From IMG/VR virus record IMGVR_UViG_3300032304_002326, positions 1-64,000 of that record: DNA of 64,000 nt; one strand, 5' to 3'. Positions 6,169-62,635 of this stretch are shown here, piece by piece. The first letter of the stretch is position 1; each line of letters begins with the position of its first letter. Under the pieces are notes generated by a model. The model saw only the letters and a list, made by a program, of their open reading frames with translations. It ran no database searches and had not been told where the DNA came from. The position numbers were made by a program, and so were the translations under genes. The stretch is from a virus.

Positions 6169-6315
6169 ATTTACGAAATATGGGAATATGATAAAAATAA
6201 ACTTTACTTAGCAAAAAAATATGGTTATAATTGTATTGTAATTTGGGAAACAGATTACAAGAAAAATAAAAATATAATAAAAGAAATTTTTAATAATTAT
6301 GAACAAATTAAATAA
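6169..6315 (+). pseudogene. C-terminal remnant of a Vsr-like homing endonuclease
   Basis: An open stretch without a start codon encodes 48 residues including KKYGYNCIVIWETDYKKNKN. This is the typical C-terminus of Vsr/EDxHD-type phage endonucleases (aromatic or acidic strand, then a Tyr-Lys-Lys helix). It parallels the end of the complete endonuclease at 60030-61202 (ESGYEVLHVSELDYKNNKQE). Upstream catalytic parts are gone and replaced by the terminator of the previous operon. The stop lies 1 base before the ATG of the next gene, suggesting that a former endonuclease insertion reshaped that gene's 5' end. Confidence 0.6.
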
Positions 6316-6316
6316 T

Positions 6317-7592
6317 ATGACCCCAGACAGTCGAAAAAAAACTAAGGTATTAGTAGTACCTAGCGACAGGTCTGGGGTCGGCTGAAGGTTATTTCAGAAG
6401 TGTAACACCACATACAGGTTTAGAAAAGTTTTACCCAGAAGAATTCCATGTTGACATAAATGAAAGTCCTGATTTAAATAATGATGAATTTTTAAAACAA
6501 TATGATATTATTCATTACCATAGAAGTTTAGGTCAATACGAGCAAATGCCAATGTTATTAAATAAATTAAAATCAATGGGAATTATTACTATTATGGATT
6601 TAGATGATTATTGGTCACCTGGACAACATCACCCAGCATATTTGATAATTAAAAATTCAAAGATGGATGAGAAAATATTAAATAATATTAAAATTGCTGA
6701 AAATGTTACAACAACAACTGATTTGTTTGCAGCAGAAATTGGTAAGTTTAATAAAAGAGTTTATGTGTTACCAAATGCAATAAACCCAGAAGAAAAACAA
6801 TACACACCAACACCAGAAAAGTCAGATAGAGTTAGAATTGGATGGTTAGGTGGTAGTTCACATTTAGAAGATTTAAAACTATTAAATGGTGTGGTTAATA
6901 AAATGAAATCAAGTAACTTATTAGATAAAGTACAATTTGTATTATGTGGATTTGATTTAAGAGGTAATATAACCATGATTGACCCACAAACTGGTCAACA
7001 AACACAAAGACCAATTAAACCACAAGAAAGTGTTTGGTATCAGTATGAAAAAATATTTACAGATAACTACAGCACAATCAGTGAAGACTATAAAAAACAT
7101 TTATTAACATACACCAAAGACGAATATCCAAATGTTGCAAACGAACCATATAGAAGAGTTTGGACAAAACCAGTAAGTACGTATGCTAGTAATTATAATT
7201 TATTTGATATTTCATTAGCACCACTTAATGATAATATGTTTAACAAAGTTAAATCACAATTAAAGGTGATTGAATCTGGTTTCCATAAAAAAGCATTAAT
7301 TGCTCAAAACTTTGGACCATACCAAATTGACCTAGTAAATGCTAGGGTAAAAGCATTAGACAATAGTGAAAATACGTTTTTTGATGGTGGTAACGCATAT
7401 TTAGTAAATAATAATAGTAAAGATTGGTATCAATTTATTAAAAGATTGGTTGAAAACCCAGAGCAAATTGAAATCCTATCTAACAATTTATATAACACTG
7501 TAAAGGATAAATATTCTATCGGAGCTGTATCTAAACAACGTAGAGAATTATATTTATCTTTATTAAACGAAAAACAAAATGATAGTATTTAG
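6317..7592 (+). CDS. Glycosyltransferase interrupted after codon 22; possible recoding
   Basis: The ATG at 6317 gives a short frame ending KVLVVPSDRSGVG then TGA (6383-6385). The rest of the protein, GYFRSVTPHTGLEKFYP and about 400 residues to 7592, lies in the +1 frame from 6384 or 6387. VPSDRSGVG-YFRS is a motif I associate with phage GT4-like glycosyltransferases, so the break is inside one gene. The body has DLDDYW, a Rossmann-like KVQFVLCGF and PLNDNMFNKVKSQLKVIE with GFHKKALIAQ, typical of the GT-B C-domain. Either a +1 frameshift at GGC-TGA, a short bypass from GGC to GGT, or a disrupted gene translated from the internal ATG at 6546 would explain it. The GC-rich hairpin over the first 22 codons favours programmed recoding, but a sequencing error or scar is not excluded. 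Confidence 0.65.
6319..6379 (+). promoter_or_regulatory. Long GC-rich hairpin overlapping the start of the glycosyltransferase
   Basis: GACCCCAGAC (6319-6328) pairs perfectly with GTCTGGGGTC (6370-6379). Inside, GTCG (6330-6333) pairs with CGAC (6364-6367), and CTAAGGTA pairs with TACCTAG (6342-6349 with 6357-6363, one bulged A). The element begins at the G of the ATG and ends at the base before the GGC-TGA codons. Its codons (AGC GAC AGG TCT GGG GTC) differ sharply from the AT-rich codons around it, so the structure itself seems selected. Confidence 0.75.
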
Positions 7593-58139: not shown

Positions 58140-59969
58140 ATGAATAGAGAAATAATACCAAAGCTAAAGAAAATAATTAGCGAAGCCAAACATGAAGCAA
58201 AATTAATGGATGACACTGTGGTTAAACCAGAACACATATTAATTGCAATACTAAGTGATAATAATAATGGATGTTCAGATGCATTAAAAAATATGCAAAT
58301 AAATTTAAGTTTACTTAATGACTACATATTTTTAGAATTAAATAATTCAAATTTAACCCCTAAAATTAGTAATAACACAAAAATAACAATACCTTTTAGT
58401 AAGGAGAGTAGATTATTATTTAAAGAGGTTGATTTAGAAGCTGAAAATTTGGGTGATAACCACATTGATACAACACATTTAATGATGGCAATATTAAACC
58501 CAAAAAATAAGGTAAATATTAGAAAATTATTAAACACTTCTGGTATTTACCATGAAAACTTTTCAAAAACTGTTAAAAAAATGAGAGATATGTTAGATGA
58601 TGTTAAAGGTTCATCAGATGATTCTGAAGATTTTGAATATTCAAGTAGTGAGGATAACAGAAAAGATAAAAAACCAAAAAGAAGTGCACCAAGTAAAACA
58701 CCAGTTTTAGATAATTTTTGTACTGATATAACAAAAATGGTTGATGAAAATAAAATCGACCCAGTTGTTGGTAGAGCAAATGAAATAAAACGTGTAACAC
58801 AAATCTTATCCAGAAGAAAAAAGAATAACCCAGTATTAATTGGTGAAGCTGGTGTTGGTAAAAGCAGTATCGTTGAAGGTATTGCACTACTAATCAAAAG
58901 TGGTTCGGCACCAAGAACATTAATCGATAAAAAAATATATTCATTAGATTTAGCATCAGTAGTTGCTGGTACTAAATATAGGGGTCAATTTGAGGAAAGA
59001 ATTAAAGCAATCCTAGACGAACTAAAAGCAAATCAAGATATAATTTTATTTATTGATGAATTACATACATTTGTTGGAGCTGGTAACGCATCTGGTTCAT
59101 TAGATGCATCAAATATATTCAAACCAGCATTAGCTAGAGGTGACATACAAGTAATTGGTGCAACAACATTAGATGAATTTAGAGAAAACATTGAAAAAGA
59201 TAGTGCGTTAACCAGAAGATTCCAACAAGTACTTGTTGAAGCAACAACAAATGAAGAGACTAAAATTATTCTTAATAATATTAAAGATAAGTACGAAAAA
59301 TATCATAGTGTTAGTTACACACCAGAAGCAATCGAAGAGTGCGTTAAAATGGCTGATAGATACATCACAGATAGAGCAATGCCAGATAAAGCAATTGACG
59401 TATTAGATGAAGCTGGAGCCAGCACAAACATATCTTTAGAAAAACCAGAAAGTGTTAAAAAACTTGAGGCAAAAAAAGAAGAAATATTAAAAAGAAAACT
59501 AGAAGTAGTTCAAAAACAAAAATATGAGGAAGCTGCCGAACTTAGAGATGAGGAAAGAAAAGTTAATGAGGAATTAGATAAAGCTAAAGAAAATTGGTTA
59601 GCTTCATTAGATAAGAAAAGAACAATTGTTGACGTTGAACTAATAGCTGAAACAGTATCAATGATGACTGGAATACCATTAAGTAAAATTTCTTCACAAG
59701 AAAATAAAAAACTAACGACCATGGATAAAGAATTGATGGGTAGAGTAATTGGTCAAGATGAAGCAGTTTTAAAAGTAATTAAAGCTATTAAAAGAAATAG
59801 ATTAGGTATTAGAAATATGAATAAACCAATTGGTTCATTCATATTTTTAGGACCAACTGGTGTTGGTAAGTGTTTTTTATCTGAAACTCAGATAGTTATT
59901 AGAAATAAAACAACTGGTTTGATTGAAACTATTGATATAAATGAATTAAAAAAACGAATAAAACACTAA
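58140..59969 (+). CDS. clpC: ClpC-type AAA+ ATPase, N-terminal part fused to a short N-intein
   Basis: 609 residues. Clp_N-type helices (1-150), a Ser/Asp linker, AAA1 with Walker A GEAGVGKS (235-242) and Walker B FIDE (304-307), a UVR-type middle (KQKYEEAAELRDEERKVNEE) as in ClpC, and the start of AAA2 to GPTGVGK (571-577). There the ATPase stops: residues 578-609, beginning CFLSETQIVIRNK, are an intein N-terminus (Cys1, block A), ending at a stop after 32 residues. The continuation is at 61199. Clp chaperones unfold proteins, alone or for ClpP; no clpP is in the window. Neither piece alone has a working AAA2. Confidence 0.92.
   Translation: MNREIIPKLKKIISEAKHEAKLMDDTVVKPEHILIAILSDNNNGCSDALKNMQINLSLLNDYIFLELNNSNLTPKISNNTKITIPFSKESRLLFKEVDLEAENLGDNHIDTTHLMMAILNPKNKVNIRKLLNTSGIYHENFSKTVKKMRDMLDDVKGSSDDSEDFEYSSSEDNRKDKKPKRSAPSKTPVLDNFCTDITKMVDENKIDPVVGRANEIKRVTQILSRRKKNNPVLIGEAGVGKSSIVEGIALLIKSGSAPRTLIDKKIYSLDLASVVAGTKYRGQFEERIKAILDELKANQDIILFIDELHTFVGAGNASGSLDASNIFKPALARGDIQVIGATTLDEFRENIEKDSALTRRFQQVLVEATTNEETKIILNNIKDKYEKYHSVSYTPEAIEECVKMADRYITDRAMPDKAIDVLDEAGASTNISLEKPESVKKLEAKKEEILKRKLEVVQKQKYEEAAELRDEERKVNEELDKAKENWLASLDKKRTIVDVELIAETVSMMTGIPLSKISSQENKKLTTMDKELMGRVIGQDEAVLKVIKAIKRNRLGIRNMNKPIGSFIFLGPTGVGKCFLSETQIVIRNKTTGLIETIDINELKKRIKH
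59871..59966 (+). mobile_element. N-terminal split-intein fragment
   Basis: 32 codons from Cys (59871) to His. Block A only; block B and all later intein motifs are in the other ORF. It is inserted after the Lys of the second Walker A. Confidence 0.85.
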
Positions 59970-60005
59970 CCAACACCAATTAGTCCGAACTTTTTAAATC
60001 TTCGT

Positions 60006-60022
60006 GATATTTATTATAAAAT
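60006..60022 (+). promoter_or_regulatory. Candidate phage promoter motif inside the intein
   Basis: GATATTTATTATAAAAT, 7 bases before the ATG of the endonuclease. It would drive the endonuclease and the C-terminal Clp piece independently of the first clpC ORF. Confidence 0.5.
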
Positions 60023-60029
60023 AGATATT

Positions 60030-61202
60030 ATGAAGATAAAAACAAGTAAAGGTATTAAAGAAGTGAATGAAGTGTTTCCAGATTTAGAAACATTTAAAAA
60101 CCAGGTTTTAAAATTAGATAAAAACATACGCTACAATAACGAAATGATAAAAAAAGAAATGGAATCACTGATGGTTAAATTAAAAGAACAAGTAGGTGTT
60201 GTTTCATTATCGTTGATGCGTGGTTGGTTAGTTAAAAATTATAATTTTAAAACTAAAAAATGGGGTAATATAGAGTATTTCATTGAACGTGGTTGGACTC
60301 ATGATGATACTTTGGTTGAATTAGGTAAACGAAATGAAGAATTAAAACAAAGGAATCGTTTATGTGAGGAATATTGGGTAAACAAGGGTTACACTAAGGA
60401 AGAAGCTATTAATGAAATTTCTAAACAACAAAAGAAGTCGTCTAAATGTGTTAAAACTTATCATGGTAAATCAAAACAAATGCTAGCTGATAAAGGTTAC
60501 ACCGAAGAAGAAATAAAACGTATTTGTTTAACACCAACAAATCATGAATTCTGGGTTAATAAGGGGTATTCTGAAAATGAGGCAAAAGAAATTATTAGTA
60601 AAAACCAAACTGAAGCTGCAAAACAAGTTGATTTTGAAAAAAGACTAATACCATCAAATATTGAGTACTGGGTTGAGAGAGGGCTTAATTATCAACAAGC
60701 TAAACTAAAAGTTACTGAACGACAAACAACATTTAGTTTAGATATATGTGTTCAAAAATACGGTGAAGAAGATGGTTTAAAAAGGTTTAATGAAAGACAA
60801 ATTAAATGGTTAACTAACTATAAAAAAACTAATTTCAGTAAAATTTCTCAAACATTATTTTGGGATATATTAGAATCAGAACCAACGATAAAAAATAATA
60901 ACATATTCTTTGCAACTTTCAAGAATGGTTTTAAAGATGATAGTGGTAAAAATAACGAATATCGATTATCATTGTTAAATGGTGTAATATTACCAGATTT
61001 TATTGATTTAGCTAAGAGAAAAATTATTGAGTTTGATGGTACTTATTATCATAGGTTAACGCCAGAAAATTCATTAAGAGAAGAAAAACGAGATAAAATG
61101 ATATTAGAATCTGGTTATGAAGTGTTACATGTTAGTGAATTAGATTATAAAAATAATAAACAAGAAATAATAAATAAATGTATAAATTTTTTAAATAAAT
61201 GA
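60030..61202 (+). CDS. Vsr-like homing endonuclease inside a split intein
   Basis: 390 residues. The first 250 hold repeated modules of the pattern E-x-W-V-x-(K/R)-G-x-(S/T/N)-x-x-x-A (YWVNKGYTKEEAINEIS, FWVNKGYSENEAKEIIS, YWVERGLNYQQAKLKVT), then VQKYGEEDGLKRFNERQ, common in phage endonucleases. The catalytic core is NGVILPDFIDLAKRKIIEFDG, TYYHR, then REEKRDKMILESGYEVLHVSE, matching the Vsr/EDxHD nuclease class reported next to split inteins in fractured genes. Its stop and the next ATG share ATGA, so the C-piece of Clp is translationally coupled to it. Confidence 0.88.
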   Translation: MKIKTSKGIKEVNEVFPDLETFKNQVLKLDKNIRYNNEMIKKEMESLMVKLKEQVGVVSLSLMRGWLVKNYNFKTKKWGNIEYFIERGWTHDDTLVELGKRNEELKQRNRLCEEYWVNKGYTKEEAINEISKQQKKSSKCVKTYHGKSKQMLADKGYTEEEIKRICLTPTNHEFWVNKGYSENEAKEIISKNQTEAAKQVDFEKRLIPSNIEYWVERGLNYQQAKLKVTERQTTFSLDICVQKYGEEDGLKRFNERQIKWLTNYKKTNFSKISQTLFWDILESEPTIKNNNIFFATFKNGFKDDSGKNNEYRLSLLNGVILPDFIDLAKRKIIEFDGTYYHRLTPENSLREEKRDKMILESGYEVLHVSELDYKNNKQEIINKCINFLNK

Positions 61203-61843
61203 AAAAAGAAATTAAATTAAATAAAATCTATAATCTCGATTTAGGTTCAACACCAGTTAGTGTTACAATTTTAGAAATTAATGAAAATGGTGTTATGTGT
61301 AAATATAATAATTCTTATGCTGGTAGGGTTGAGTTGTTAACATATGATTTATTTGAAATGAATGGCTTAACTAAACCATTAGATAGAATAGAGGAAATAC
61401 AAAAAAGACTTGAGAAATCAGATAATGTTTTATTATTTGATAAACACGAATTAGAATCTTTAAAAAAAATCAATAAAACAACCAAAATATCAGAGTACGA
61501 AGTTTTAACTGATGATGGTTTTGTTGATATAGAAGCATTGCATGAGACAATACCATATGAAGTATATCATCTTAAATTAAGTGATGGAAAAGAGCTTAAA
61601 TGTGCTGATAATCATATTGTGTTTAAACACAATGAAGTTAATCCGATTAATTTTGATGAAGTTTTTGTTAAAGATTTAAAATTAGGTGATAAAATTATAA
61701 CACAATATAATGATAATGGTGAATCTATAAATTCAATGGTTATTCAATTAACCAATTTAGGTTATGAAGAAGTAATGTATGACCTTGAATTAAAAGAAGG
61801 GTCTAACAAAAGATATTACACCAACGGAATTTTATCGCATAAT
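61199..61843 (+). mobile_element. C-terminal split-intein fragment
   Basis: 215 codons ending in Asn at 61843. Block B KCADNHIVF (His139, with Ala instead of Thr at the usual position) and block F/G YDLELKEG, YYTNGILSHN are clear. Residues 1-95 before the intein core are extra and unidentified. Confidence 0.82.
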
Positions 61844-62635
61844 ACACATTTAACTAAATTATTAACTGATGAAATATTTGGTGATTCAGATTCTTTAATT
61901 AAAGTTGACATGAGTGAATACATGGAAAAACATTCAGTATCAAAATTAATTGGCGCACCTCCAGGATACGTTGGTTATGAACAAGGTGGTCAATTAACTG
62001 AAAAAGTTAGAAGAAAACCATATTCAGTTATATTATTTGATGAAATTGAAAAAGCTCATGATGATGTATTTAACATATTATTACAATTATTAGATGAGGG
62101 TCAATTAACTGATAGTTTTGGTAGAAAAATTAATTTTAAAAACTGTCTGGTAATCCTAACATCAAATGTTGGTGCTAAAGAATTAAGTAGTTTTGGTAAA
62201 TCAATGGGGTTTCAAACTGGTGCAACTGTTGCCAATGAAGAAGAAAGAAATCGTTCAATTATTGAAAAGGCACTTAAAAATAAGTTTAAACCAGAATTCT
62301 TAAATAGGTTAGATGAAATTATAGTATTTAATAGTTTAAAAGAAGAAGATATTCATAAAATTATATACAATGAACTAGGTAAATTAAGAGACCGAATAAA
62401 AGAAATGGGTTATGATATTAAAATACAAAAAAGTGCAGTTGAATTTGTCGCTAAAAATGGATACGATGAGGCATACGGTGCAAGACCTTTAAATAGAGCA
62501 ATTCAAAGATACATTGAAGACCCAATCGCTGATGAAATATTAAATGGCAACTTCAAAGAAGGTGAAACCATAAATATTACATTGGATAAAGATAAGAGTG
62601 AGATTGTGTTAAAATCAATAAAATCAAAACAATGA
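61199..62635 (+). CDS. clpC: ClpC-type ATPase, C-terminal part preceded by a C-intein
   Basis: 478 residues. Residues 1-215 are intein; residue 216 (Thr) restores Walker A when joined to GPTGVGK, followed by HLTKLLTDEIFG. Then Walker B ILFDEIEKAHDDVF (279-282), QLTDSFGRKINFKNCLVILTSNVG, sensor FLNRLDEIIVF, and a final YGARPLNRAIQRYIEDP with the sensor-2 Arg. SFGKSMGFQTG (MGF at 336-338) sits where ClpC/ClpA have their ClpP-binding loop (VGF or LGF in relatives), so a ClpP partner, probably host-encoded, is possible. Splicing would give about 840 residues in total. Confidence 0.92.
   Translation: MKKEIKLNKIYNLDLGSTPVSVTILEINENGVMCKYNNSYAGRVELLTYDLFEMNGLTKPLDRIEEIQKRLEKSDNVLLFDKHELESLKKINKTTKISEYEVLTDDGFVDIEALHETIPYEVYHLKLSDGKELKCADNHIVFKHNEVNPINFDEVFVKDLKLGDKIITQYNDNGESINSMVIQLTNLGYEEVMYDLELKEGSNKRYYTNGILSHNTHLTKLLTDEIFGDSDSLIKVDMSEYMEKHSVSKLIGAPPGYVGYEQGGQLTEKVRRKPYSVILFDEIEKAHDDVFNILLQLLDEGQLTDSFGRKINFKNCLVILTSNVGAKELSSFGKSMGFQTGATVANEEERNRSIIEKALKNKFKPEFLNRLDEIIVFNSLKEEDIHKIIYNELGKLRDRIKEMGYDIKIQKSAVEFVAKNGYDEAYGARPLNRAIQRYIEDPIADEILNGNFKEGETINITLDKDKSEIVLKSIKSKQ

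Follow-up and report, generated by a model that had tools for sequence, protein, structure and literature searches.

How is a phage glycosyltransferase produced from a gene that is closed by a stop codon after 28 codons and continues in a different reading frame? The window, the entire 64-kb stretch of DNA analyzed here out of a 78.6-kb virus record, has a G+C content of 28% and contains T4-type major head, portal, and terminase genes, and its source is an AT-rich phage of the T4 superfamily. No tRNA and no Rfam family, introns included, were found in the window. As the original prediction had stated, the codon GGC is followed by TGA and GAAGGT, and the coding sequence continues in the +1 frame only: past the TGA, the glycosyltransferase is open solely from the GGT at position 6387. 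The start codon had been placed at 6317, six codons too far downstream, since translation likely begins at the in-frame ATG at 6299, which leaves 28 codons up to and including the GGC. The features of the locus are as follows, the GGC and GGT being referred to below as the take-off and landing codons.

6175..6315 (+), C-terminal homing-endonuclease remnant, about 47 residues recognizable (profile E = 7.5e-17 versus an endonuclease alignment), overlapping the glycosyltransferase start
6299..6382 (+), ORF1, 28 codons, MNKLNNMTPDSRKKTKVLVVPSDRSGVG, replacement N-terminus supplied by the cassette, whose boundary is set by empty/occupied pairs
6319..6328 (+), lower stem, 5' arm, GACCCCAGAC, 10 bp with 6370-6379
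6330..6333 (+), middle helix, 5' arm, 4 bp with 6364-6367
6346..6360 (+), upper helix and loop, core 6346-6349 with 6357-6360
6364..6367 (+), middle helix, 3' arm
6370..6379 (+), lower stem, 3' arm, GTCTGGGGTC, adjoining the take-off codon
6380..6382 (+), take-off codon GGC (Gly)
6383..6386 (+), coding gap TGAA, the first three letters of which are the stop codon TGA (6383-6385)
6387..6389 (+), landing codon GGT (Gly), with decoding predicted to restart at 6390 (TAT)
6387..7592 (+), ORF2, glycosyltransferase body (phrog_7162), in the +1 frame relative to ORF1

Alignment with homologues lacking the interruption, which the original prediction had proposed as a check, revealed that SDRSGVGYFRS is continuous in the nearest uninterrupted relative (81% identical). 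Relatives in annotated phages were distant only, all below 60% identity, and scanning bacterial and archaeal genomes with the body protein as the query turned up no relative. Among 80 homologues, two (L015 and L016) were the first seen to have the same layout with another gap. More carriers were obtained by DNA-pattern scans using the 3' or the 5' arm, and many by searches in which the upstream endonuclease or a KFRS-type glycosyltransferase was the query. The pattern hits L082 to L098, the GC-rich L101 and L111, and L116 and L119 were discarded as chance matches. The final table contains 36 distinct interrupted and 103 uninterrupted genes; exclusion of L242, which has a 41-nt gap, left 35 interrupted genes. 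Miscalled bases are ruled out because the same layout recurs with different sequences in 35 distinct genes, several of which are identical across separate assemblies.

In these 35 genes, the gap was of 2 nt (3 genes), 3 nt (20), 4 nt (3), 5 nt (4), 6 nt (1), 8 nt (1), 9 nt (2), or 10 nt (1), so that all three frames are used (23/4/8 genes according to the gap length modulo 3). Take-off is at codon 25 to 29 in the relatives that carry the element. A stop codon was present immediately 3' of the take-off codon in all 35 genes (TGA in 22, TAA in 12, and TAG in 1), and the landing codon specified the same amino acid as the take-off codon in 33 (25 Gly-Gly and 8 Ser-Ser), being in each of these 33 genes the earliest triplet for that amino acid in any frame. 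The background rate of same-amino-acid triplets is 2.7%, and permutation gave a P value of at most 5e-6 for the match, which is indicative since the 35 rows are related. Considered alone, the YFRS clade showed a match in 11 of 12 genes (P = 0.002), and the KFRS clade, mostly Gly-Gly, gave a P value of 0.09. The take-off and landing codons were identical in just 14 of the 35 genes, indicating that it is decoding identity that is kept and that the match does not reflect DNA duplication. The two mismatched genes (L104, AGC-AGA; L126, AGT-GGC) each still allow two or more base pairs to form with the take-off tRNA; according to the title of a work cited in PMC3014915, minimal pairing between peptidyl-tRNA and mRNA can suffice for the resumption of coding. 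The take-off codons are often GGC or AGC, both of which are rare in the genes of the window (2.9% of Gly and 2.3% of Ser codons, respectively); GGT, the common landing codon, accounts for 74% of Gly codons.

A blind screen covering 292 records (1.8 Mb) looked for a frame beginning at an ATG, an abutting hairpin, a stop codon, and a matched codon from which a long frame runs on. Besides the elements already known, it recovered L160 and L167, which represent a diverged member of this enzyme family and have the arrangement GGT-TGAATAAA-GGT. These two were left out of the matching statistic because the screen itself requires a match. The remaining hits came mostly from GC-rich contigs, in which strong hairpins are expected.

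The near-continuous hairpin claimed for the first codons was borne out by RNA folding. The segment from 6300 to 6400 had a predicted free energy of -35.4 kcal/mol (z = -6.3), and none of 200 shuffled sequences was equally stable. The hairpin ends at the take-off codon in 35/35 genes, the base of the stem lying from -2 to +1 nt from that codon in the 31 genes compared. The 75 nt ending at the take-off codon had folding energies of at most -23.7 kcal/mol in the first 31 interrupted genes to be tabulated, versus at least -21.2 kcal/mol in 64/64 intact genes. The strongest intact fold (-21.2 kcal/mol) belongs to L115, a gap-less gene retaining the extension; L115, together with L025, L113, and L120, looks like a gene that lost the gap and then the complementarity of the 3' arm.

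Covariation was evident from the arms of each element, which paired better with each other than with arms swapped between elements (P ≤ 5e-5). Since the 5' arms differ in register, a single consensus structure over all 35 elements gave 0 pairs, and the arm-swap test and three register-consistent groups were used instead. Among 14 register-compatible elements, both sides changed in 7 of 18 pairs, one pair being seen as CG, GC, UA, and AU, and the two other register groups agreed. A covariance model built from these 14 elements found KFRS-type elements outside the training set with E values of about 1e-6 to 1e-12, and the hairpin model found no other gene with a strong score in 32 carrier records. 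Hop length did not correlate with the length of the lower stem (r = 0.09).

An endonuclease homologue was located directly upstream of 31 of the 36 interrupted genes, its ORF spanning at least 250 aa in 24 of these, and upstream of 15 of the 103 intact genes, the majority of which had come from the endonuclease search itself. Intact relatives of the remnant present in the window are located at the corresponding position in L107 and L072, among others. These proteins match NUMOD3 and MTES_1575 domains and PHROG homing endonucleases; the designation EDxHD-type is only a reading of the IE[YF]NGD stretch. In L072 (2009-2953), the endonuclease frame extends through the 5' arm of the hairpin, and that arm is thus coding in two frames simultaneously. 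On a FastTree tree, interrupted genes are interspersed with intact ones, and the state changes 28 times. Comparison of an occupied locus (L153) with an empty one (L274) showed flanks that are 91 to 100% identical, between which the endonuclease gene and the first glycosyltransferase codons, as far as the gap, represent an insertion or replacement. The difference stops at the gap, indicating that the mobile unit ends there. These comparisons point to occupied and empty alleles of the same site in close relatives and indicate that a cassette has repeatedly been joined to the start of one phage glycosyltransferase gene. The likeness to the bypass of T4 gene 60 put forward in the original prediction thus goes further than claimed, as it includes the adjacent homing endonuclease.

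Related endonucleases also occur directly upstream of uninterrupted glycosyltransferase genes that have neither hairpin nor gap (L176, L179 to L181, L184, L161 to L163, and L170). Elsewhere in the window (58140-62632, + strand), a gene for a ClpA/ClpB-like AAA protease is split at the second Walker A motif. Its first half ends with GPTGVGK followed by an intein-like start (CFLSETQ...), a free-standing ORF with a weak MTES_1575/DUF559 nuclease match (60030-61199) lies between the halves, and the ORF that follows opens with an intein-splicing match before the remaining protease sequence. The arrangement resembles a split intein whose halves are separated by a homing endonuclease.

Selection acting on the sequence past the junction was assessed from pN/pS values, which are rough, as synonymous sites are near saturation. 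For codons 0 to 25 past the junction, interrupted genes gave 0.30 (YFRS type) and 0.18 (KFRS type), compared to 0.32 for intact genes, which indicates purifying selection in both. The positions of downstream start codons are not conserved, and L154 lacks any start codon over 200 codons. Together, these results suggest that the joined product is what selection sees.

Programmed translational bypassing, in the form of a short stop-hop that a homing cassette introduces, is very probably the mechanism by which the two parts are joined, judging from the comparison of these genes. The use of all three frames together with the amino acid match strongly supports a hop, from GGC to GGT in the window, as the original prediction had proposed for one gene, because the pattern cannot be generated by a fixed frameshift, by readthrough, or by a restart. 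A prfB-like +1 frameshift at GGC-TGA, giving GVG-EG-YFRS in the window, was the competing proposal. It agrees with the window considered in isolation and with the other gaps of 4 nt, given the stop codon, the upstream GGGG, and the +1 frame, but it is improbable: relatives of the same architecture require shifts of +2 or 0, the slip from GGC to GCT would be poor, residues missing from intact relatives would be added, and no reason is provided for the match between take-off and landing codons. Stop codon readthrough promoted by the hairpin is even less likely. The frame is kept by 23 of the 35 gaps, which makes readthrough formally possible for those genes taken alone, but 12 gaps, including that of the window, are out of frame, the hairpin is upstream and not downstream of the stop codon, and readthrough predicts extra residues and no codon match. 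Reassignment of TGA is also unlikely because this codon ends 5 of the 41 long ORFs of the window and because relatives have TAA or TAG at the same place.

A broken gene, or separate initiation of ORF2 at the ATG at 6546, would account for the stop codon and the frame change that interrupt the gene, and the latter had been named as an outcome that would refute recoding. We give this explanation as slight a chance as readthrough, since purifying selection extends from the junction to the first start codon, downstream starts are not conserved (and are missing for 200 codons in L154), near-identical intact and interrupted sisters exist, and both codon matching and covariation would be left without a reason. 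Homing endonucleases frequently accompany introns, and removal or change of the gap at the RNA level, by intron-like excision or transcriptional slippage, might be considered on that basis. This is the least credible of the alternatives, as the gap is merely 2 to 10 nt long, no Rfam intron was found in the window, there is no homopolymer to slip on, and excision needs no match at the level of decoding, the codons being identical in just 14 of 35 genes.

For the stop-hop, we propose the following sequence of events. The ribosome would start at 6299, read 28 codons, and then pause while GGC occupies the P site and UGA the A site, the stop codon supplying the pause. The peptidyl-tRNA-Gly would then leave GGC, the mRNA would slide by 7 nt, and re-pairing at GGU would allow decoding to restart at UAU, yielding a product of about 428 aa with the sequence SDRSGVG-YFRS, like uninterrupted relatives. 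Given the geometry of the ribosomal channel, the upper parts of the hairpin, whose 3' strands are about 13 to 23 nt upstream of the take-off codon, would fold on leaving the ribosome, with the 3' strand of the lower stem (about 1 to 10 nt upstream) still within the exit channel. Completion of the lower stem may draw the mRNA forward across the 5 to 13 nt hopped, in line with the motor model, in which the 5' stem-loop of T4 gene 60 is proposed to pull the mRNA forward (PMC5009743, PMC11194080). The mobile unit would consist of the putative endonuclease gene plus the replacement N-terminus, the hairpin, the stop codon, and the gap, and would enter glycosyltransferase genes at the conserved GV[GS]-[YK]FRS codons. 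As the ribosome would need merely the next matching codon, the cassette could be attached to the resident gene whatever the frame. The endonuclease appears to have decayed in the window, and the hop to have been retained.

The bypass of T4 gene 60 with its homing endonuclease gene mobA (PMC5009743, PMC3014915, PMC11194080) shares with the present genes the combination of a homing endonuclease with bypassing, the latter being the proposed mechanism here, the stop codon 3' of the take-off codon (35/35 here), the stem-loop 5' of the take-off codon, and matched take-off and landing codons (33/35 here, by amino acid). It is a single case with a 50-nt gap and take-off at codon 46, whereas the genes described here have gaps of 2 to 10 nt, take off at codon 25 to 29, and amount to dozens of cases in one enzyme family. 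The T4 gene 60 take-off stem-loop, which holds the stop codon, has no counterpart here outside L242, because gaps of 2 to 10 nt leave no room for a stem-loop made of gap bases. L242 (1270-1360) is a lone related gene with an endonuclease remnant upstream, the 41-nt gap of which has its own CCCCCAC...GTGGGGG stem-loop (GGT GCT TAA ... GGT); this gene is possibly an intermediate towards a long gap of the T4 type. The nascent-peptide signal of T4 gene 60, looked for as the motif KKYK only, is absent from the listed N-termini of the relatives. The 3' stem-loop has no counterpart past the landing codon, the first 60 nt after it having a median of -2.9 kcal/mol versus -4.4 kcal/mol in intact genes.

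The 3-nt gap class resembles synthetic stop-hops in E. coli (Weiss et al. 1987, as summarized in PMC5009743), in which matched codons flank a stop codon and 9 nt are read as one amino acid; according to that summary these were constructs, whereas the present elements are natural, with a conserved adjoining hairpin and varying gap lengths. In the mitochondria of Magnusiomyces capitatus (PMC5009743), mobile short inserts are likewise tolerated by bypassing, with matching that is sometimes imperfect, but these elements are mitochondrial, occupy 81 sites in many genes, and are described as largely independent of mRNA context and without a linked endonuclease gene. In mycobacteriophage Corndog (PMC4351075), a nuclease (HNH) gene lies upstream of the tape-measure gene, for which bypassing was proposed to explain an unexplained N-terminal join; the available portion of that report leaves the case unresolved and reports no matched-codon or hairpin pattern. 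Among T4-related phages, bypassing was considered in 2010 to be apparently unique to T4 gene 60 (PMC3014915), and a 2016 review stated that shorter-distance counterparts had long been presumed and that no natural in-frame stop-hop was known (PMC5009743). No description of a natural family of short stop-hops was found in the accessible literature, which includes few subscription papers. Bypassing and homing cassettes are thus each known, and are combined in T4 gene 60 with mobA; the apparently new part is the proposed natural family of short stop-hops.

We consider it probable that homing cassettes of a widespread family rely on short stop-hops to connect their own N-terminus to the invaded gene irrespective of frame, that a hairpin behind the take-off codon is enough, without a long gap, a take-off hairpin, or a KKYK peptide, and that natural short stop-hops exist in numbers. 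Automated annotation would call such genes truncated. If this is true, a nearly one-of-a-kind case becomes a comparative system of dozens of natural variants in gap length, codon pair, and hairpin, the hairpin-motor model would be directly testable, and entry of a selfish gene, whatever the frame, need not destroy a coding region.
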